A stretch of 64,000 nucleotides of DNA from Croceimicrobium hydrocarbonivorans. GTDB taxonomy: Bacteria > Bacteroidota > Bacteroidia > Flavobacteriales > Schleiferiaceae. Where the stretch lies: positions 3,355,501 to 3,419,500 of the forward strand of contig NZ_CP060139.1 of assembly GCF_014524565.1 (NCBI RefSeq). Direction: 5' to 3'. The notes beneath the pieces were generated by a model. The model did no database searches and was not told the origin of the DNA. It worked only from the letters and a program-made list of their open reading frames with translations. A program made the position numbers and the translations under genes. Shown here piece after piece: positions 18,738 through 30,484 of the stretch (the first letter of the stretch is position 1; each line of letters begins with the position of its first letter).

Positions 18738-19364
18738 ATGGACTTTTCATCAAAATATTTGGAAAAAGCGGTATTGGAAATTTCGGGCCTACCTGGAATT
18801 GGACGAAAAACCGCTTTGCGTCTGGCTTTACACTTATTGCGTTGCGATGAAAACGAGGTGGAAGCCCTGGCCGGAAGTCTGATGGATTTAAAGCAAAAAG
18901 TAAAGCGCTGTAGCTCCTGCGGGAATCTCAGTGATCGGGAGCGCTGCGAAATTTGTGAGAATCCGGTCCGTGAACAAGCTTTGGTATGTGTGGTGGAAGA
19001 TATTCGGGATGTGATGGCCATTGAGAATACCGGTCAGTACAAAGGTGTTTATCAGGTATTAGGAGCCCTTATTAGTCCTATGGATGGAATTGGTCCCGGA
19101 GGTTTAAACTTGCAAAGCCTTTTGGATAAGGTAGAAGAAGGCAAGGTTCAGGAAGTGATTTTCGCTTTGAGCGGCACCATGGAAGGGGAGACCACCGGTT
19201 TTTATATTTACAAGAAACTGAAAGATAAAGGCTTAAAGCTGTCTTCCATTGCCAGAGGTATTGCCGTTGGTGATCAATTGGAATATGCAGATGAGCTAAC
19301 CCTGGCGCGTAGTATTCAGCACCGTTTGCCTTATGAGCAATCCTTACAACAAAATCGTTCCTAA
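18738..19364 (+). CDS. recR: Recombination mediator RecR
   Basis: 208 residues. There is an N-terminal helix-hairpin-helix ([17 protein letters not shown], ~18-34), a four-Cys zinc finger with CSSCGN and CEIC (~56-73), and a Toprim domain with [17 protein letters not shown] (~81-97). The C-terminal [22 protein letters not shown] is in place. RecR with RecO/RecF loads RecA on gapped DNA in the cytoplasm. Its stop overlaps the next start by one base (TAATG), coupling a DNA-repair gene to two membrane glycan genes. This looks like a conserved transcription unit rather than a functional link. Confidence 0.96.
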
Positions 19365-20731
19365 TGCTGAACTCCTTTAAGGGCCTGGCGCTCTTTATTG
19401 TTGCTTTGGTTTGTCGCCTTCCCTTTTTATGGGCCGGCTATGGCAAGGAGTTCGATGCCTGGAGTAATGCGCTCAATGCTCGGATAATTTCTGAAACCGG
19501 AGTTTATGAGGTTTCGCGTTTGCCGGGACATCCTTTGCAGGAGATTTTATTGAGCCTTTTATACCCCATTAATCACAGCTATTTCCTTTACAATTTTCTC
19601 AGTGCCTTAATTACGGCCCTGGCGGTTTGGGCTTTTTATGAAATCCTAAAACTGCATCGTATTCCTAAAGCCTGGTATTGGGCCTTAAGCTTCAATTTTA
19701 TACCGGTTTTCTTTATCGCGGGTACCTACACTATTGATTACAATTTTGCCCTGGCTTTTATCCTTTTAGCTTATCGAAGTTTACTCTTAAAGCAATATGC
19801 CCTTGCGGGACTCTTTATTGGATTGGCTACCGGGTTTCGAATAAGTTCCCTGGGTTTTGCCTTGCCCTTTGCCTTGATGTTGGGTTGGCGAAATTGGCGC
19901 CCCATATTGCGAATGGGAATTGTAGCGGCATTGATTTCCGCCACAGCTTATAGCCTTCCTTTTTCAGAATACGGACTGGCATTTCTCGATTTTCATAAAC
20001 CACCCTTTCCGGGCTGGGCTTCAGTTTTATACAAATTGGGCCTTGGTATCTTGGGCTTGCCCTTATTGATCTATTTCTTGATTTCTATCCCAGACTTTTT
20101 TCGCCGCAAGGCCCAGCATTTTAGTCCTGATCATTTACAAGCCTTAAATCTTCACAGCTTTTTGATTTTGGTCATTGCCATGCAATTAGCGGTATTTATG
20201 CGATTACCTTTCAAGGCTGAGTTCTTTATTCCGGCCGTTCCCTTTATCCTGCTTTTCTGGGCAACTTATACTAAGGAGAGCAAAGCACGATGGATCGCCT
20301 ATATGAGTCTCTTTTCATTACTCTTTTTTGGTTTTGATTATAAAGATGAGTGGCGAGGAGCAAGGCCCACCGTGGGTTCAATAGAATTTGAGGCCGGAGG
20401 GAAAACTATTTACTGTTCCCCATTACAAGGACCATTATTGATCGATCAGGGGAAACGAAAGGTGCGATCCCAAACGGTGGAGCGTTCCATCCTCGCCTTG
20501 CAAGATGAGGCACCAGCTTTGGTGATTGCCGGCTGGTATTGGCCTGAATTAGTATTTAAATATCGGGAGAGCCAGCATATTATTGAACATTATTCAAGTG
20601 AGGAAGAGCTGGATTCAGCGCGAGCGGCTGGCTTGCGAATTTTATATTTGCCGGAAATCGGTCAGCAGAATGTACTAATGGAAGGACATTCTAAGGCCGA
20701 AGAATGGGGAGAAGCCCTTTTGGAACCATGA
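19364..20731 (+). CDS. Multi-pass membrane protein, GT-C glycosyltransferase-like
   Basis: 455 residues with about 10 hydrophobic helices in the first 330 residues and a soluble ~120-residue C-terminal domain. The first extracytoplasmic loop contains GYGKEFDAWSNALNA (~27-41), with an acidic pair where GT-C enzymes that use polyprenyl-phosphate sugars have their catalytic Asp. The fold is therefore probably that of a mannosyl- or arabinosyl-type transferase, though no exact family is recognised. It overlaps recR (TAATG) and the next glycosyltransferase (ATGA), so the three are translated together. Confidence 0.65.
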   Translation: MLNSFKGLALFIVALVCRLPFLWAGYGKEFDAWSNALNARIISETGVYEVSRLPGHPLQEILLSLLYPINHSYFLYNFLSALITALAVWAFYEILKLHRIPKAWYWALSFNFIPVFFIAGTYTIDYNFALAFILLAYRSLLLKQYALAGLFIGLATGFRISSLGFALPFALMLGWRNWRPILRMGIVAALISATAYSLPFSEYGLAFLDFHKPPFPGWASVLYKLGLGILGLPLLIYFLISIPDFFRRKAQHFSPDHLQALNLHSFLILVIAMQLAVFMRLPFKAEFFIPAVPFILLFWATYTKESKARWIAYMSLFSLLFFGFDYKDEWRGARPTVGSIEFEAGGKTIYCSPLQGPLLIDQGKRKVRSQTVERSILALQDEAPALVIAGWYWPELVFKYRESQHIIEHYSSEEELDSARAAGLRILYLPEIGQQNVLMEGHSKAEEWGEALLEP

Positions 20732-22680
20732 AGCTTAGCATCGTAATCGTTAACTACAATGTGCGCTACTTCTTAGAGCAGTGCCTGAAATCGGTCTATA
20801 AGGCCCTGGATGGCATTGAGGCGGAAGTATTTGTAGTGGATAATGATTCGAAGGACAGTTCGGTGGAAATGGTGCGAGAGCAATTTCCGCAGGTGCAACT
20901 CATTGCAAATTCGGATAATCCCGGTTTCTCCAAAGCCAATAATCAGGCGATTCGACTTTCAAAGGGAGAATATGTTTTGCTGCTCAATCCGGATACAGTG
21001 GTAGAGGAGCATACCTTTCGTAAAAGCCTAGAGTTTATGGATGCCCACCCCGATGCTGGTGGTTTGGGCATTAAGATGATAGATGGCAAAGGGAATTACT
21101 TACCCGAATCCAAGCGTGGACTGCCCACTCCCTGGGTGGCCTTTTACAAGATCTTTGGATTAACGGCCATATTTCCGCGTTCGAAGAAATTTGCTCGCTA
21201 TTATATGGGTCATCTTTCGGAAGATGAAAATCAAGAAGTAGAGATTTTAGCCGGGGCTTATATGCTCATGCGAAAATCGGTTTTGGATGAGGTGGGCCTC
21301 TTGGATGAAGATTTCTTTATGTATGGCGAAGACATTGATCTGAGCTATCGAATCCTGAAAGGTGGCTATAAGAACTATTATCTGGCGGATAGCACTATAA
21401 TCCACTATAAAGGGGAGTCAACCAAAAAGGGCTCCTTGAATTATGTGCGGGTCTTTTATAAGGCTATGGTGATTTTCACCGAGAAGCATTTCAGCAGCAG
21501 CTATGCCCGCTTTTATTCCCTCTTCATTAATCTGGCCATTTACCTCCGTGCAGGGGCGGCCGTACTGGGGCGAATTGTAAAAAGACTGAGCACCCCGGTG
21601 GTGGATGTGCTTTTTCTCTACGGCGGACTCTATTATATCAAAGAATACTGGGAGCATAATCACCGCTTTATTCAGGGTGGTGAATATCCACCTGAATTAA
21701 TGCAAATCGCGGTACCCGCCTATATAGCCTTTTGGGTGGGGAGTTTGTATTTAAGTGGAGTCTACGATAAGCAAGTTCGGATTGTTCAGATATTAAGAGG
21801 CTTGATATTAGGAACGGTAGGCATTTTGGTGGCCTATAGTTTAATACCGGAGGCCTGGCGTTTTTCCCGTGCGATCATCATTTTAGGCGCCCTTTGGGCG
21901 GGCTTATCATCCTTACTCTGGCGCTATTTATGGTCTTTAATCAGCAAGAAAGCCATTTTGGTTTCCGCGAAGAAAGATCTGCGAATTCTCTTAGTTGGGG
22001 AAGGAGAGGAACTGGAACGGGTACATAAATTATTGAGAGCTAATCAGCCATTGCTTAGCTTTTGCGGATGGGTTAGTACGCATAGCGAACATGCTGAGCC
22101 TTACGTTGGGAGTACTGAAGATTTACCGGATTTGGTGCGGGTGTTTCAAATCGACGAAATCATTTTTTGCTCGGCTAGCCTTCCGGCGGAGGCCATATTC
22201 AGAGCTATGCGTAATCTGCAAGGCTTTGATTTGGAATTTAAGATTGCTCCGGGCGAAAGTCAGTTTATCATCGGCAGTAATTCCATTCATTCTCAAGGAT
22301 CCTGGTATACTCAGGATTTTAATAGTGTAGATAAACCGGAGAATCGTCGCGCCAAGCGAATTTTGGATTTTACGCTTGCCCTTGGCCTTTTAATTACAAG
22401 TCCACTTCTAGCTTGGTTTTTCAAAAAGCCATTTCAGTTTATAGCTAATGTTTTGCAAGTACTCATTGGTAGAAAAACCTGGGTGGCTTATGCCGAAAAT
22501 GGAAGAAGCAAGGAGCTGCCGCAATTGGCTCCTGGGGTCTTAGGATTGGATTTGGCCTTGCAAAGCAACCGAAGAGATGAGGCCATTCAGCGACAGCTTA
22601 ATCAACTCTATGCCAAGGACTACGACTGGCAAAAGGATATGGCCTTTATCTGGCAATACCGCAAATCGCTCGGAAAATAA
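20728..22680 (+). CDS. GT2 glycosyltransferase fused to a degenerate polyprenyl-phosphate sugar-transferase-like region
   Basis: 650 residues from the ATG at 20728, which overlaps the upstream stop as ATGA. Residues 1-230 are a GT-A family 2 transferase: LSIVIVNYNVRYFLEQCL, EVFVVDNDSKDSS, NPGFSKANNQAI, LLLNPDT (DxD-like) and FFMYGEDIDLSYRI. Membrane helices follow (~270-430). Then comes a nucleotide-binding-like stretch (LRILLVGEGEELERVHKLLR, ~440-460) and ESQFIIGSNSIHSQG. The final ~110 residues start RRAKRILDFTLALGLLITSP, the membrane hairpin that normally opens a PF02397 sugar-phosphate transferase. The catalytic core is missing or shrunken, yet the typical LNQLYAKDYDWQKDMAFIW end is kept. 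The fusion probably acts in capsule or exopolysaccharide assembly. Confidence 0.8.
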   Translation: MKLSIVIVNYNVRYFLEQCLKSVYKALDGIEAEVFVVDNDSKDSSVEMVREQFPQVQLIANSDNPGFSKANNQAIRLSKGEYVLLLNPDTVVEEHTFRKSLEFMDAHPDAGGLGIKMIDGKGNYLPESKRGLPTPWVAFYKIFGLTAIFPRSKKFARYYMGHLSEDENQEVEILAGAYMLMRKSVLDEVGLLDEDFFMYGEDIDLSYRILKGGYKNYYLADSTIIHYKGESTKKGSLNYVRVFYKAMVIFTEKHFSSSYARFYSLFINLAIYLRAGAAVLGRIVKRLSTPVVDVLFLYGGLYYIKEYWEHNHRFIQGGEYPPELMQIAVPAYIAFWVGSLYLSGVYDKQVRIVQILRGLILGTVGILVAYSLIPEAWRFSRAIIILGALWAGLSSLLWRYLWSLISKKAILVSAKKDLRILLVGEGEELERVHKLLRANQPLLSFCGWVSTHSEHAEPYVGSTEDLPDLVRVFQIDEIIFCSASLPAEAIFRAMRNLQGFDLEFKIAPGESQFIIGSNSIHSQGSWYTQDFNSVDKPENRRAKRILDFTLALGLLITSPLLAWFFKKPFQFIANVLQVLIGRKTWVAYAENGRSKELPQLAPGVLGLDLALQSNRRDEAIQRQLNQLYAKDYDWQKDMAFIWQYRKSLGK

Positions 22681-25526: not shown

Positions 25527-25555
25527 TTGTTAATCGTAGTGACTTATTATATTTG
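25527..25555 (+). promoter_or_regulatory. Bacteroidota-type promoter of the large adhesin gene
   Basis: A TTG (25527-25529) is followed 18 bases later by TATATTTG (25548-25555), a full TTG/TAnnTTTG pair. The start would be near 25560, about 29 bases before the ATG at 25589. This is the cleanest two-part promoter in the window. Confidence 0.7.
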
Positions 25556-25588
25556 TGCAACGTCAAAAACTGCACAAATACTACCTTT

Positions 25589-28500
25589 ATGAAGAAGTTG
25601 CTACTTCTCTTTTTTGGATTCCTGCTAAGTGCGAGCTTATCAGCCCAAATCGATACTCTATTTATTGAAACTTTTGACCCCGGAGATTCTATTACTACTT
25701 TATCTCTCGGAACGGCTACCACAATATGGAAAGACACCAACAACGTCTCCATCAGTGGCAACCAATCTTATCACGGAAAGGTGCAGGCACCTGCCACTGG
25801 TTCAAACAGTTCAGAAGTTGTTTTTCGTACTAACTCATTTAGTACCGTAGGTAAGACCTTCGTATTCTTAAACTTCTATCACATTGCCAAGATTAACCAG
25901 GTGAACTCCGGCTTGATTCGTATTTCTACGGATAACGGTGTTACTTGGACTGCCTTGAATAATAACAATGTGATTTACCTCGGAACCAGTAACTGGCGTT
26001 CATCATCAAACTTCCAGGAAGCATCTTACAATATTCCTAACCAAGGTATTAACCACTGGTTTGCAGGAACAGATCCTCCCGTACAAAACTCTTGGTGGCA
26101 ATCCGAGCGTTTCGATATTTCGAACTTAGCGATTGATGCCAACGGGAATGGTTACCCCAATGTGCAGATTGAATTTTCATGTTTTGAGGTATTAAATCCT
26201 AGTCCTTTTGGCCGTAGCTACGGTGATGGTTGGTGGGTTGATAACCTGGTTATTACCGGTTCTAACTGTGAGCTTTTCCCTCCATTATTTCATTTTAACT
26301 ATACCCCGATTCCTTGTTTCCCAATTCGCCCAACCGGCGCAATTACTCAGGAGCCTTCCAATAACTACAAGGTTGGTGCTCGGGTAACTGATACTGTTGC
26401 AGGTGGTGCCACCCATCCAACCTGGGTGAGTGGAATTGATAGCGTAACTGTATTCTATCGGGTAATTAACTCGATGGGTACCAGCGCTTGGCAGAACTTT
26501 AATATGACCCTTACCAGTGCTAGTAACTTCGAATATCAAGGTACCTTCAACAGTGTGCAGTTGGGAGATACCATTGAATATTATTTTAAGGCTTGGGATT
26601 TAGCTTGTCCAAATACAGCGCGTTTCCCAGACTCACTGGCTAATCCACAAAATGCTTATATCCGTTTTTGGCCACAAGCCGGTTTACCCTTTAAATGCGG
26701 TGCGCCTGATTGTGGAACTCTACCAGGAACTATTAAAACCTTCCCATGGGTTGAGAATTTTGAAGGCCCGGAATGGGTAGCTGGAACCGGTATTGGTGAT
26801 AACGGAACCACCCACCGTGGAAACTTCCCGAATGAGCAAACCGGAATGAGATACTGGAACTTACAACCACCAGAAAATACGGCAGGTTATGGTTGGAGTA
26901 TTCGCACCGGTACTACCGGAACTCCATTTACCGGTCCAAACGGTAACCATACTCCAGGAGGCGCAAAGTACCTTTTTGCCGAAGCGTCCCAGGGACTGCT
27001 AAATACGGGAACTACCCTTATTACCCCTTGTATCGATTTGACTAATGTTACTAAATGTTATGCATTGGAATTTTATTACCATTTCTTTGGTGAAGACATG
27101 GGGACCATGCGTGTTGATATTGATACAGGTACCAATAATGCAGCTTGGTATAATGGTTACTATTTTATCCGTAAGGAGCAGCAGAAAGCTCAATCTGATC
27201 CTTGGAAACGTGCTTTGATTCCTTTGAAAGAATTTAATGGTCAGTTTATCCGAATCCGTTTATTATCGGTAAAGCAGACCAGTAAAATGGGGGCTGCTGC
27301 CCGTGGAGACATGGCCATTGATGACCTGCGAATTTTTGAACCTACTCCAGTAGATGCAGAAATCCTTGAGGTTACCGCACCGGTTGAAGGACTTTGTTCC
27401 TATGGATCAGCGGAATCCATTGAAGTGGTAATCCGAAATAATGGTTGTGACAGCTTATTGAGCTTGCCTTTGCAGATTCAAACCAATACTGGTGCTGTTC
27501 AAAGTGAAACCCTTACTCTGGCCTTAGGAACTGGAGATACAGGAACCTATACTCTGACTACCACCTCCAATATGTCAGCTCTTGGAACTTATGATATCCA
27601 TGTTTGGGCTAACCATCCAATGGATACCATTCCTGATAATGATACGGCCTCAAGTGCTACCATAACGCACGTAGCCTCTTACAATACCTATCCATTGGTA
27701 ATGGATTTTGAAACGGTAACACCGAATACCTCACAAACTGGCACGACCTTATTTACAACTGAAACCGGCTTAGACCCTGCTTTTGTATGGAAGGTTGGTA
27801 ATGGATATACCTTTACTCGTGGTACCGGACCAAAATATGGTCACTATCAAAAAGGCCAGTACTTCTATACTGAGGCAACTGGTAGTACAGGTAATGTATC
27901 CACTTACATTGTTACCACTCAGTGTATGGACTTTACTGCTATGCCGAATGCTACTTTAGACTTCTATTATCATATGGTAGGAGCTAATGCTGATGGTATC
28001 GAGATTGAAGTAAATGAACCAGGTGTTGATGCTCCGGATGTTTGGAATCCATTAGCAGGAAGCCTCGTTAGCACTTATTCAGGAAACTATCCTCTTTCTA
28101 ACTACGATTACAAACGAGTTAACCTTTCCGCTTACAATAACAAGCAGATTAAAATTCGTATCAAAGCTTCTCGCACTGGTGTAGGTGATCTAGCTGACAT
28201 TGCTATCGATAAGCTGATGATTTACAATCGTATTGCTTCTGATGTTGGGGTTGAGTTTATTAATAACCCTCCGCTGTCATGGCCAGCTAACCAGGTGTTT
28301 AATCACCCGACTGCAATCGAGCAGGTGGTAGTTCGAAATTTTGGAACCAGCACGGCTACCGGCGTAACAGCTACCTTGGCTATTACCCCTAAGTGTGGTG
28401 CTAATGCCGGTGTTACTACTACCTATACCAGTACAACTACTACCAACATTCCAGCGAATAGCAGTGCTACTCTTACTATGCCGAATATTGATGTGATCAT

Positions 28501-30484
28501 CCCTGCTGGTGAATGTGAGATTTGCGCTTATGCTAACCTGGCGGGTGATACCTATTCATTTAATGATACGGTTTGTAGAACTGTAACCGGTTTGGGTACT
28601 TATGATCTCGATTTCTATGATGATTTCGATAATTGTGATTATGATGAATATGGCTTCTTTAGCTGGTCTCCCAATAATAACTCAGGCTATTACCTCCAAT
28701 GGGAGCGTGGAGAAGCACCGGCAAACAGCCAGTTCTCTTCACTTCAAGCGAGCGATAATATCTGGGCTACTGGATTAAGCACTGGCTACTATATTGATGG
28801 AAAGCAAGAGGTATTGCGTTTACCAAGCTTGGATAACTTCGATACCATTGTATCTGCAACTATTGCCTTCTACCAAAACTTGGATATGGGTAATAATGCG
28901 GCAGGTACTGTTCAGATTAGCCGTGGTGGTTGGAATGAATTAGGAGGTAACTTGGCAACCTTCTCTAATATTGGTCAGAACTGGTATACCGGCTATTTCG
29001 GTACTATTCAAGGACCTGCTGGTACAGGTGTAACTAAAGGATTTACTGGAAGCTCTGTAAACGGTGCGAACCCTTCAGGATGGGCTTACTCTGTATTCCC
29101 AATGTCGCAGTTGAACTACGAGCCTAATGCTGTTCCTTTCCGTTTCTACTTCAGTTCTACCGCAGGTGCTAACACCGCGCGTAACTTAGAAGGTTGGGCA
29201 ATTGATGATTTTGAAGTGTACATTCCACCTCAAAACTCTGCCTCTCCAGAAGATTGGGTATTTACCAATCCTCTCCAGATTCCAACTTTTGCACAGCCTT
29301 TAGACATCTTTATCCGTAATACCGGAGCCAAAGTTCTGGACTCTAGCCAAGTTAAGGCACAATGGTTTGACGATGTAGCGGGTACGAACCTTACTTGGGA
29401 CGGACCATTCGAATGGGCCATTTCACCACGCTTCTTTATCGAAGGCAGCCGCTTCCGTTATGATTACACCGATTCTATTCCAGGATCAGTAATCACCACC
29501 GGATTGCATAAAATGTGCTTAATCAGTCAACGTCCTAATAACAAAGTGGATAACCGTCCAAGTGATGATACCGTTTGTTATACTGTAGCTGTATTGCCAG
29601 AATATGAATTCGATATTGCTAATGGTGATACTGCTTACTGTAATAATTTCGAAGACAATAATGGTGCTTTACCTTTCATTGCCCTGAATACAGAAACTTA
29701 TGCTCGTGGTCAATGGAGCTGGGAGCGTGGTACTCCAACTCAGTTCCCTGGAGCCTACAGTGGTAATGGATGTTGGATGACTGGCTTGGATAGTAACTAC
29801 CGTTCTCGTGATCAATCAGGATTATTTAGCCCTGTATTTGTGATCGATACCAGCACTGCTTATGAAATGAGCTTCATGCACAAGTTTGAAACTGAGAAGT
29901 ACCACGATGGTGGGGTAGTTGAAGTTACTCTAGATGGTGGTCGTAGCTGGCAAGTATTAGGTTTCGCCAATGAAACCAACTGGTACAATACCGAGTATGT
30001 TACGGCACTGGATATTATTAAGCCAGGTTGGACAGATACCGCTGACTGGGATACCGCTAGCTATGTATTCGAATTCGATACTGCTGCAAACCGCGCTGTA
30101 TTCCGCTTCCGTTTCGAGAGTGACTGGTCTATTCAGGATAAAGGTTGGGCTATCGACGACTTCTGTATGACTACTACCAAGAAGAAGGCAACCTTCCGTA
30201 TTGGAAACAGAGAGTACAATCCTGTACCTAACTCTTATATTGGTGAGTTAAGTCCTAACCCAACTAATGACATTACCCACTTACCGCTCTTCAATGCGGA
30301 GGCGAAGGATGTCAGCGTCACGATTGTGAACGTACTAGGACAAGCCATGATGCAGAAGGACTACCACCTTGAGCGCGGAAGTGCCTCACTGGTATTCGAA
30401 ACCTTCGACTATACTCCAGGTATTTACTTCGTAAACTTGAGTATCGATGGTCAGCGTGTGACTCGCAAGCTGATTGTGAAATAA
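25589..30484 (+). CDS. Large T9SS-secreted multi-module surface protein
   Basis: 1631 residues from the ATG at 25589. A further in-frame ATG at 25553 lies upstream but gives no signal peptide start. There is a signal peptide (to LSASLSAQ). At least five MAM/jelly-roll-like modules end in WWVDNLVI, MAIDDLRIF, IAIDKLMIY, WAIDDFEVY and WAIDDFCMT. Between them are CARDB-like spacer domains (SAESIEVVIRNNGCDSLLSL; TAIEQVVVRNFGTSTATGVT). The C-terminus is a T9SS type-A tail (IGELSPNPTNDI to the final RKLIVK). It should be exported by the Por system and displayed at the surface, perhaps for adhesion or gliding. It has its own promoter and a strong terminator, so it is monocistronic. Confidence 0.88.
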   Translation: MKKLLLLFFGFLLSASLSAQIDTLFIETFDPGDSITTLSLGTATTIWKDTNNVSISGNQSYHGKVQAPATGSNSSEVVFRTNSFSTVGKTFVFLNFYHIAKINQVNSGLIRISTDNGVTWTALNNNNVIYLGTSNWRSSSNFQEASYNIPNQGINHWFAGTDPPVQNSWWQSERFDISNLAIDANGNGYPNVQIEFSCFEVLNPSPFGRSYGDGWWVDNLVITGSNCELFPPLFHFNYTPIPCFPIRPTGAITQEPSNNYKVGARVTDTVAGGATHPTWVSGIDSVTVFYRVINSMGTSAWQNFNMTLTSASNFEYQGTFNSVQLGDTIEYYFKAWDLACPNTARFPDSLANPQNAYIRFWPQAGLPFKCGAPDCGTLPGTIKTFPWVENFEGPEWVAGTGIGDNGTTHRGNFPNEQTGMRYWNLQPPENTAGYGWSIRTGTTGTPFTGPNGNHTPGGAKYLFAEASQGLLNTGTTLITPCIDLTNVTKCYALEFYYHFFGEDMGTMRVDIDTGTNNAAWYNGYYFIRKEQQKAQSDPWKRALIPLKEFNGQFIRIRLLSVKQTSKMGAAARGDMAIDDLRIFEPTPVDAEILEVTAPVEGLCSYGSAESIEVVIRNNGCDSLLSLPLQIQTNTGAVQSETLTLALGTGDTGTYTLTTTSNMSALGTYDIHVWANHPMDTIPDNDTASSATITHVASYNTYPLVMDFETVTPNTSQTGTTLFTTETGLDPAFVWKVGNGYTFTRGTGPKYGHYQKGQYFYTEATGSTGNVSTYIVTTQCMDFTAMPNATLDFYYHMVGANADGIEIEVNEPGVDAPDVWNPLAGSLVSTYSGNYPLSNYDYKRVNLSAYNNKQIKIRIKASRTGVGDLADIAIDKLMIYNRIASDVGVEFINNPPLSWPANQVFNHPTAIEQVVVRNFGTSTATGVTATLAITPKCGANAGVTTTYTSTTTTNIPANSSATLTMPNIDVIIPAGECEICAYANLAGDTYSFNDTVCRTVTGLGTYDLDFYDDFDNCDYDEYGFFSWSPNNNSGYYLQWERGEAPANSQFSSLQASDNIWATGLSTGYYIDGKQEVLRLPSLDNFDTIVSATIAFYQNLDMGNNAAGTVQISRGGWNELGGNLATFSNIGQNWYTGYFGTIQGPAGTGVTKGFTGSSVNGANPSGWAYSVFPMSQLNYEPNAVPFRFYFSSTAGANTARNLEGWAIDDFEVYIPPQNSASPEDWVFTNPLQIPTFAQPLDIFIRNTGAKVLDSSQVKAQWFDDVAGTNLTWDGPFEWAISPRFFIEGSRFRYDYTDSIPGSVITTGLHKMCLISQRPNNKVDNRPSDDTVCYTVAVLPEYEFDIANGDTAYCNNFEDNNGALPFIALNTETYARGQWSWERGTPTQFPGAYSGNGCWMTGLDSNYRSRDQSGLFSPVFVIDTSTAYEMSFMHKFETEKYHDGGVVEVTLDGGRSWQVLGFANETNWYNTEYVTALDIIKPGWTDTADWDTASYVFEFDTAANRAVFRFRFESDWSIQDKGWAIDDFCMTTTKKKATFRIGNREYNPVPNSYIGELSPNPTNDITHLPLFNAEAKDVSVTIVNVLGQAMMQKDYHLERGSASLVFETFDYTPGIYFVNLSIDGQRVTRKLIVK

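Follow-up and report, generated by a model that had tools for sequence, protein, structure and literature searches.

Results

Layout of the fusion protein

We analysed a stretch of 64,000 nucleotides from Croceimicrobium hydrocarbonivorans (contig NZ_CP060139.1, positions 3,355,501 to 3,419,500 of the forward strand; hereafter the window), in which a single gene encodes a family 2 glycosyltransferase (GT2) joined to what appears to be an incomplete large phosphoglycosyl transferase (PGT), referred to here as the pseudo-PGT half. The gene (genome coordinates 3376228-3378177) is a real open reading frame which starts with an ATG at 20728, ends with a stop codon at 22678-22680 and overlaps the preceding gene, ending at 20731, by the four bases ATGA; an alternative in-frame ATG at 20704 lies inside that preceding gene. 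Its slot lies beside recR and upstream of a dihydrolipoamide acyltransferase gene. Automatic annotation, which would report the GT2 match and leave the PGT match below its cut-off, would hide the pseudo-PGT half. The features of the gene are as follows.

20728..22680, plus strand: coding sequence of the GT2-pseudo-PGT fusion, 650 amino acids (reading-frame check; same start methionine in most close orthologues)
20728..21537, plus strand: GT2 (GT-A) catalytic domain, residues 1-270 (PF00535, invariant columns, structure matches)
21496..21945, plus strand: linker helix and four-helix membrane bundle, residues 257-406 (AlphaFold2 helices, invariants, match to WbaP 8t53)
21961..22248, plus strand: Rossmann-like domain of unknown function (DUF), CoA_binding_3-like, residues 412-507 (PF13727 and fold matches)
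22264..22320, plus strand: putative equivalent of the domain-swapping beta-hairpin of WbaP, residues 513-531, FIIGSNSIHSQGSWYTQDF (alignment, low dN, WbaP numbering)
22354..22425, plus strand: remnant of the re-entrant membrane helix, residues 543-566, KRILDF...SPLL (alignment to intact PGTs)
22405..22446, plus strand: deletion point, residues 560-573, 14 amino acids (alignment and comparison with the genome's own intact enzyme)
22447..22677, plus strand: C-terminal PGT remnant, residues 574-650, NVL.G..TWVAY ... LYAKDY....D (alignments; PF02397 in five distant homologues)

Sequence and model agree that the GT2 half is intact. PF00535 scores 83.3 bits on the window protein (Pfam; curated cut-off 23.3), a structure search with the full-length model returns GT2 structures among the matches listed (Z 21-26), and V37-D38-N39, N87-P88-D89 and E201-D202 are invariant in 39 orthologues. 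We take D38, N87-P88-D89 and E201-D202 to be the DxD-like motif and the acidic catalytic residues of GT2 enzymes.

The first-pass annotation of the window had noted that the C-terminal half starts like a polyprenyl-phosphate sugar transferase. This is borne out by TIGR03025, which matches residues 293-562 with its positions 3-278 of 445 (6.1e-21, 75.2 bits, under the cut-off of 295.55), and by the hhalign and structure comparisons. When 37 remnants were aligned with eight intact PGT domains (one of which, L004, was badly cut and dropped from later steps), hhalign returned a probability of 98.7 and an E-value of 1.8e-16, the match extending on both sides of one gap. What the annotation had not mentioned is the N-terminal part of a large PGT, consisting of four transmembrane helices and the CoA_binding_3-like DUF, which is also present. 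The bundle carries a YWExNHRF loop from residue 307 and the motif RFSRA from residue 378; PF13727 reaches 21.0 bits on the window protein, under its cut-off of 25, exceeds the cut-off in the homologues L086, L087, L088, L092 and L093 and has no match in L071 and L036. PF02397 has no match in the window protein at E ≤ 1, nor in the remnant alone at E ≤ 10, and matches five of the seven half-bearing homologues scanned, best over positions 94/97-176/178 (above the cut-off in L086, L088, L092 and L093, below it in L087 with 21.2 bits, no match in L071 and L036). An extended form of the loop, YWExNHRFxxGGEYP (residues 307-321, window 21646-21690), lies in the first membrane hairpin; it varies hardly at all among the window's relatives and was not seen in the sequences of other classes that were compared.

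Structure prediction, which had been suggested as a check on that annotation, gave the same answer. The whole protein (mean pLDDT 84.8, pTM 0.72) and the half alone (mean pLDDT 82.4, pTM 0.45) were modelled with AlphaFold2, and both models contain the membrane helices, the Rossmann-like domain, a helix at the expected re-entrant position and a small C-terminal remainder. Because the full-length search lists GT2 structures, a separate search was made with the model of the half; WbaP (8t53) was then the sole Foldseek match in the PDB at E ≤ 0.001 (3.1e-8). AlphaFold2, Foldseek and VIA-align to 8t53 thus agree on a four-helix bundle followed by a CoA_binding_3-like DUF. The VIA-align superposition (Z 11.6 over 324 residues) has a high rmsd of 10.9, and domain placement relative to WbaP therefore differs or is uncertain. 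A phmmer search of PDB sequences with the C-terminal half gave no match; a profile search of the same sequences found WbaP entries at 1e-6. Taken together, sequence and models indicate a kinship of this half to PGTs that is beyond chance.

Beyond the DUF, a segment that may be equivalent to the WbaP hairpin aligns to intact PGTs almost without insertions or deletions and is present in pseudo and intact proteins alike. In the monomer AlphaFold2 models short strands are predicted there, at a pLDDT of about 50 or less. A profile alignment in which residue 532 equals WbaP residue 269 places the WbaP hairpin at about residues 514-531, assuming that the 476-residue WbaP chain is numbered as in PMC10942596. 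The re-entrant helix, whose stretch KRILDFTLALGLLI starts at residue 543, appears to have kept its basic start and its Ser-Pro break, since KR..D..SP aligns with intact PGTs at the sequence level, and the C-terminal remnant corresponds to NVLKGDMSxVGPRP ... YIENxSLxxD of the intact enzymes.

The missing catalytic block

Between the proline of the re-entrant helix and the NVL motif the window protein has 14 residues, compared to 77 in the genome's own intact large PGT, and from KR to the C-terminal end it has 108 residues versus 188. The missing stretch runs from the GP.F..Q.R segment through the DELPQ segment, which holds the catalytic Asp-Glu pair. Beyond the gap, the NVLKGDMS.VGPRP of intact PGTs reads NVLQVLIGRKTWVAYA in the window protein; distant homologues retain more of the original sequence, such as VLTGKNSFVGPE...GKKGLTGLW...LDIFYAKNQNIWLDIEIL. 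A core reduced to about 60 residues had been proposed earlier. The reduction itself stands, and the figure of about 60 residues fits the missing part of the core (77 minus 14) better than the part that remains.

The catalytic Asp-Glu dyad of monotopic PGTs is named in PMC10942596, and its presence in the PF02397 region had been singled out as a point to check. The block is absent from all 24 pseudo rows of the alignment shown, and a motif search found the dyad in 0 of 114 homologues (last 170 residues) and 0 of 41 pseudo rows of the tree, with a sensitivity that is less than full, given that 42 of 53 intact PGTs were positive. As the block with the dyad is gone, the C-terminal half should be non-catalytic, and judged from the sequence its loss of PGT catalysis is near certain. 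Four other proteins of the genome match PF02397 over its full length.

Distribution and selection

Presence of the half was scored with a profile of the half at E ≤ 1e-20 in 296 genomes of the phylum and 198 of the class, the window's own included (some rows of the search profile come from genomes that were searched). It was found in 165 of the 198 class genomes and 119 of the 296 phylum genomes; with the full protein as query, matches occurred in 58 of 59 related genomes, in some of them solely to paralogous GT2s. Named loci include Flavobacteriales, Cryomorphaceae, Schleiferiaceae, Owenweeksia, Phaeocystidibacter, Schleiferia and Thermaurantimonas, a few being labelled otherwise, and the closest, L100 from a Flavobacteriales metagenome-assembled genome, shares 95% identity with it across the half. 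Nearly all of the family profile is covered by each of the 30 phylum loci with the best scores, although L097 matches in two pieces. In a tree of 41 pseudo halves and 53 intact PGTs the two sets split with a support of 0.999, and the sequences point to a single block removed once, in a common ancestor. Repeated duplication of a neighbouring PGT was considered and is unsupported, all 41 sampled pseudo halves forming one group.

The half is, by its substitution pattern, under purifying selection. In the closest congener pair, the only one clearly unsaturated at synonymous sites, the ratio of nonsynonymous to synonymous rates (dN/dS, omega) was lowest in the GT2 domain (0.013), followed by the helices (0.015), the hairpin (0.018), the DUF (0.030) and the remnant (0.064). 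Another four pairs, with dS mostly saturated, had a lower dN in the hairpin (0.033-0.067, 26 codons) than in the GT2 domain (0.053-0.116), and dN reached 0.24-0.41 in the remnant. Mean entropy was 2.53 for the DUF versus 1.29 for the GT2 domain. Wide spread, a single group and purifying selection argue that the half is not a product of recent decay. The idea of a recent pseudogene or frameshift was rejected, as the frame is open in aligned orthologues and omega is low, and a sequencing or assembly artefact was likewise rejected because the same structure occurs in many separate genomes. Stops within the half occur in a few class genomes (G368, G364, G404, G400).

Shorter versions exist as well. 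The same slot holds GT2-only proteins of 287 amino acids in L047 and L050, and versions of 387 (L049) and 388 (L048) amino acids precede the same downstream gene. A profile of the GT2 part matched 215 of the 296 phylum genomes at E ≤ 1e-50, the frames among the matches listed having mostly 610-760 or 280-430 residues; since both long and short frames are matched, the GT2 domain is the constant part. At G293:C49:20517-21287 a GT2 orthologue lies within an open frame of 1035 amino acids that has no match to the half profile at 1e-20. An ancestor combining GT2 with a complete PGT core was not found within the phylum, where three long PGT frames were examined by Pfam: two are PF00953-PF02397 fusions and one has an unassigned N-terminal extension. 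One tblastn search revealed no plasmid-borne copies of the half at E ≤ 1e-10.

Linkage and co-occurrence with intact large PGTs

Linkage was examined in about 15 kb around 118 phylum loci other than the window. A longest-frame filter lost four of these, which were later recovered. The gene could be called in 114 loci, and in 76 of these an intact PGT lies no more than 5 kb away, in all 76 cases on the same strand and most often with one gene between; three of the four recovered loci also have one nearby, giving 79 of 118. When the nine loci of the window's class are set aside, an intact large PGT lies within 5 kb in 79 of 109 loci of other classes, always on the same strand. As contig ends cut some loci, the count is a lower bound, and chance linkage would be roughly 1.5% per locus if 3.7 PGTs per 3.6 Mb are assumed.

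Of 24 linked PGTs sampled from the 76, all except L284 and L291 fall into one clade (support 0.973). The sister of this operon PGT clade is formed by 18 sequences of the window's order, of the type of L001 (joint support 0.989). In the window genome L001 lies at G000:C1:3467798-3469210, about 90 kb from the fusion gene and outside the window. Its neighbours encode an oxidoreductase and a symporter, along with proteins that have no obvious glycan function. The similarity between the trees of the pseudo half and the adjacent PGT (Spearman 0.88, 24 pairs) was not taken as evidence for contact, since shared descent alone would give the same.

The L001-type PGT was scored at E ≤ 1e-90 with a profile that separates related genomes cleanly (at least 457 bits or at most 285). 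It occurs in all 119 phylum genomes with the half and in 39 of the 177 without it, in 155 of 165 versus 9 of 33 genomes of the class (those without matches being partly obtained by subtraction), and in 41 of 42 versus 2 of 16 relatives, where G041 and G054, which lack the remnant, were counted among those with the half and G013 was placed in neither group; the one relative with the half and without the PGT is a genome that is 70% complete. By families, tallied by hand with ten genomes left out, the numbers are 33 of 33 versus 9 of 18 (p 1.6e-5), the latter rising to 11 of 18 (p 2.7e-4) once two borderline PGT hits are included. The 39 of 177 overstates the PGT without the half, because the 1e-20 threshold misses some fused genes: 12 genomes scored as lacking it (G064, G078, G081, G101, G163, G181, G218, G265, G293, G329, G337 and G344) have GT2 frames of 611-1035 amino acids, and all 12 have the PGT. 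Two others of the 39 are borderline PGT hits, G311 (6.8e-91) and G244 (1.5e-101). As a control, the class genomes were scored for the L002-type large PGT of the window genome, which occurs in 38 of the 165 that have the half versus 17 of the 33 that lack it. The co-occurrence is thus not general to large PGTs, although absolute frequencies of control and test are not comparable, the control being a single protein at 1e-60 and the test a profile at 1e-90.

Gene neighbourhood

The gene upstream of the fusion in the window is the following.

19364..20731, plus strand: protein of 455 amino acids that looks hydrophobic (Pfam: no match at E ≤ 0.001)

By eye this protein resembles a GT-C or lipid-linked sugar transferase. 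As it adjoins the GT2 gene in only some relatives, it was left out of the mechanism discussed below. Window positions 25553-30484 encode a probable type 9 secretion cargo, a protein of 1643 amino acids that has both MAM domains and a Por secretion tail.

At the L210 locus the genes run PGT, small GT2, GT2-pseudo-PGT, AccA, thioesterase and a flippase-like gene. A small GT2 gene is directly upstream in 54 of 114 loci, AccA-like genes occur in 92 and flippase-like genes in 37 of 118, and PorZ-like genes, identified by Pfam in L246 (2980-5346) and by BLAST in the other 12, in 13 of 118, including 12 of the 15 loci whose PGT is one gene downstream. These PorZ-like neighbours raise the possibility of a link between the glycan and type 9 cargo attachment.

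In L254 (10844-13327) and L257 (9805-12291) the intact PGT of the cluster, about 828 amino acids long, is fused to Glycos_transf_4 (PF00953, MraY/WecA type), combining polytopic and monotopic PGT families in one protein (Pfam was run on these two only); similar PGT frames of 827-834 amino acids are present in L262, L264 and G151. The two GT2-only loci that have a different large PGT type 3-5 kb from the GT2 gene are L314 (7685-8851 and 13331-14749) and L049 (4448-5611 and 3-1025).

Discussion

The initiating enzyme makes a scarce lipid-linked product, and the way in which elongating glycosyltransferases find it is, to our knowledge, an open question. The gene described here might offer one answer. 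Its product would be a membrane-bound elongating glycosyltransferase whose C-terminal half is a large PGT of the WbaP type stripped of its catalytic block, with the four-helix bundle, the DUF, the swapping segment and both ends of the PGT domain kept. This half would pair with an intact large PGT of one type, as WbaP protomers pair with each other, and the pairing would place the GT2 domain where the undecaprenyl-diphosphate-linked sugar is made, ready to add the next or an early sugar. In other classes both genes usually sit in one cluster, often with a small GT2 gene; in the window genome the corresponding PGT gene is about 90 kb away. The WbaP homodimer is, according to PMC10942596, held together by the end of helix 3 and by the hairpin Asn251-Gln268, which completes the sheet of the partner protomer. 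A docking half is the simplest reading, because the parts used for pairing are kept, the catalytic block is lost, a GT2 is fused and one PGT type is both linked and co-occurring. The first step, a dead half, can be read from the sequence; the second, pairing with the L001-type PGT, we infer. Overall, we consider the chances about even that the pseudo-PGT half docks the elongating GT2 onto its cognate initiating PGT. The broader proposal, that throughout the phylum this half heterodimerises with one cognate initiating PGT, thereby coupling initiation to elongation and possibly reflecting a general channelling of undecaprenyl-diphosphate-linked sugars, is more tentative and falls somewhat short of an even chance.

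A number of observations weigh against docking. None of the nine loci of the window's class is linked to an intact PGT, and loci of the order that keep the half show no intact PGT within the flanks examined. In the GT2-only genomes G037 and G052 a different large PGT, scoring 278 and 262 bits with the profile of the PGT type, lies on the same strand at a distance of 3-5 kb, so that nearness to a PGT is independent of the half. Ten class genomes with the half have no PGT hit at 1e-90, five of them being 95-97% complete. Conversely, the PGT is kept without the half in G042 and G055 and, by frame length, also in G146, G180, G204, G307 and three f32 genomes; as some lineages do so, neither the PGT nor the GT2 strictly needs the half. 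The co-occurrence could reflect a shared pathway instead of contact, and the genomes being related, per-genome p-values are not to be taken at face value, for which the family count is only a partial remedy. With respect to selection, dN in the closest pair is higher in the hairpin (0.016) than in the GT2 domain (0.008), omega of the remnant rises to 0.14 and 0.25 in two pairs that are more distant and close to saturation, and DUF and remnant are highly variable. Finally, two orthologues of 548 amino acids (L035:4420-6066 and L037:4622-6268) end near the start of the re-entrant helix, keeping bundle and DUF and lacking the remnant.

Several of these points would fit a passive role, in which the dead half does no more than tie the GT2 to the membrane and pair GT2 protomers through the hairpin, with no contact to a PGT. 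The membrane helices, the re-entrant helix and the hairpin segment are all retained, fusion and PGT genes are unlinked in the window's class, and GT2-only orthologues exist, two of them near a different large PGT. An anchor alone leaves unaccounted for that 79 of 118 loci have a PGT linked on the same strand, that co-occurrence with one PGT type is near-absolute and that the other large PGT shows the opposite trend, and the GT2-only orthologues in the same slot suggest that the GT2 domain can do without this anchor; we regard it as doubtful, albeit worth keeping in mind. It is improbable that the half is a regulatory sensor, in which the GT2 would be gated by nucleotide or nucleotide-sugar binding to the DUF and the loss of the PGT core would be a by-product: the DUF is Rossmann-like and PMC10942596 names a regulatory role for its counterpart in WbaP, but by entropy the domain is among the least conserved parts of the protein.

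That the half is a functionless relict, being lost lineage by lineage, would be in line with the shorter versions of 548, 388/387 and 287 amino acids in or beside the same slot and with the faster change of the remnant. An omega far below 1 in the closest pair, retention in 165 of 198 class genomes and the nearly complete span of the 30 best-scoring phylum loci argue otherwise and make it quite unlikely. Least credible, and hardly to be expected, is a half that still acts as an initiating enzyme with an unusual active site. Conservation of the re-entrant helix and the C-terminal segment might hint at this, but the dyad block is absent, its motif occurs in none of 114 homologues as opposed to 42 of 53 intact PGTs, and the genome has its four other full-length PF02397 proteins.

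The docking proposal differs from what the first-pass annotation had suggested, namely that an initiating enzyme had decayed into a membrane anchor or regulatory domain. Descent from an initiating sugar-phosphate transferase and the absence of catalysis are upheld. Ongoing or local decay is contradicted by the one internal deletion shared across the phylum, by PF02397 in five of seven homologues and by an omega well below 1 throughout the closest pair, and an anchor or regulatory domain is too vague a description for a half that appears to retain the parts which dimerise WbaP and whose linkage and co-occurrence point to one PGT type as a likely partner. It looks as though the chemistry of an initiating enzyme was lost in evolution while its pairing parts were kept and joined to a working transferase. 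The fusion would provide a testable case for physical channelling, with the L001-type PGT as the likely partner. Its gene would also mark a glycan pathway that is widely conserved and uncharacterised.

Among known systems, the N-terminal half resembles GT2 transferases (PF00535; structural neighbours 6p61, WrtF, GalNAc-T2, TarS and TarP) in its GT-A fold and the usual motif positions, and differs from them by the extra 375-residue pseudo-PGT half. With WbaP of Salmonella enterica (PDB 8t53) the window protein shares the order of four-helix bundle, CoA_binding_3 DUF, hairpin segment, re-entrant helix and C-terminal segment; in contrast to WbaP, it is without the catalytic Asp-Glu block and has a GT2 fused at its N-terminus. 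A second functional domain fused to a monotopic PGT also characterises the Bi-PGTs named in PMC10942596. In these the extra domain joins a monotopic PGT catalytic domain, whereas in the window protein that domain is incomplete: the fusion is present, the catalytic block is absent, and only the GT2 domain is expected to be active. Among the open-licence literature matches listed, no title or abstract opening describes such a fusion. The docking proposal itself has a likeness in EpsZ-EpsW of Myxococcus xanthus, where a dedicated partner is proposed to act on a large PGT dimer (PMC12802240). That partner, EpsW, is a response regulator which is proposed to assist dimerisation of a PGT without a hairpin, whereas the partner proposed here is a pseudo-PGT fused to a GT2.

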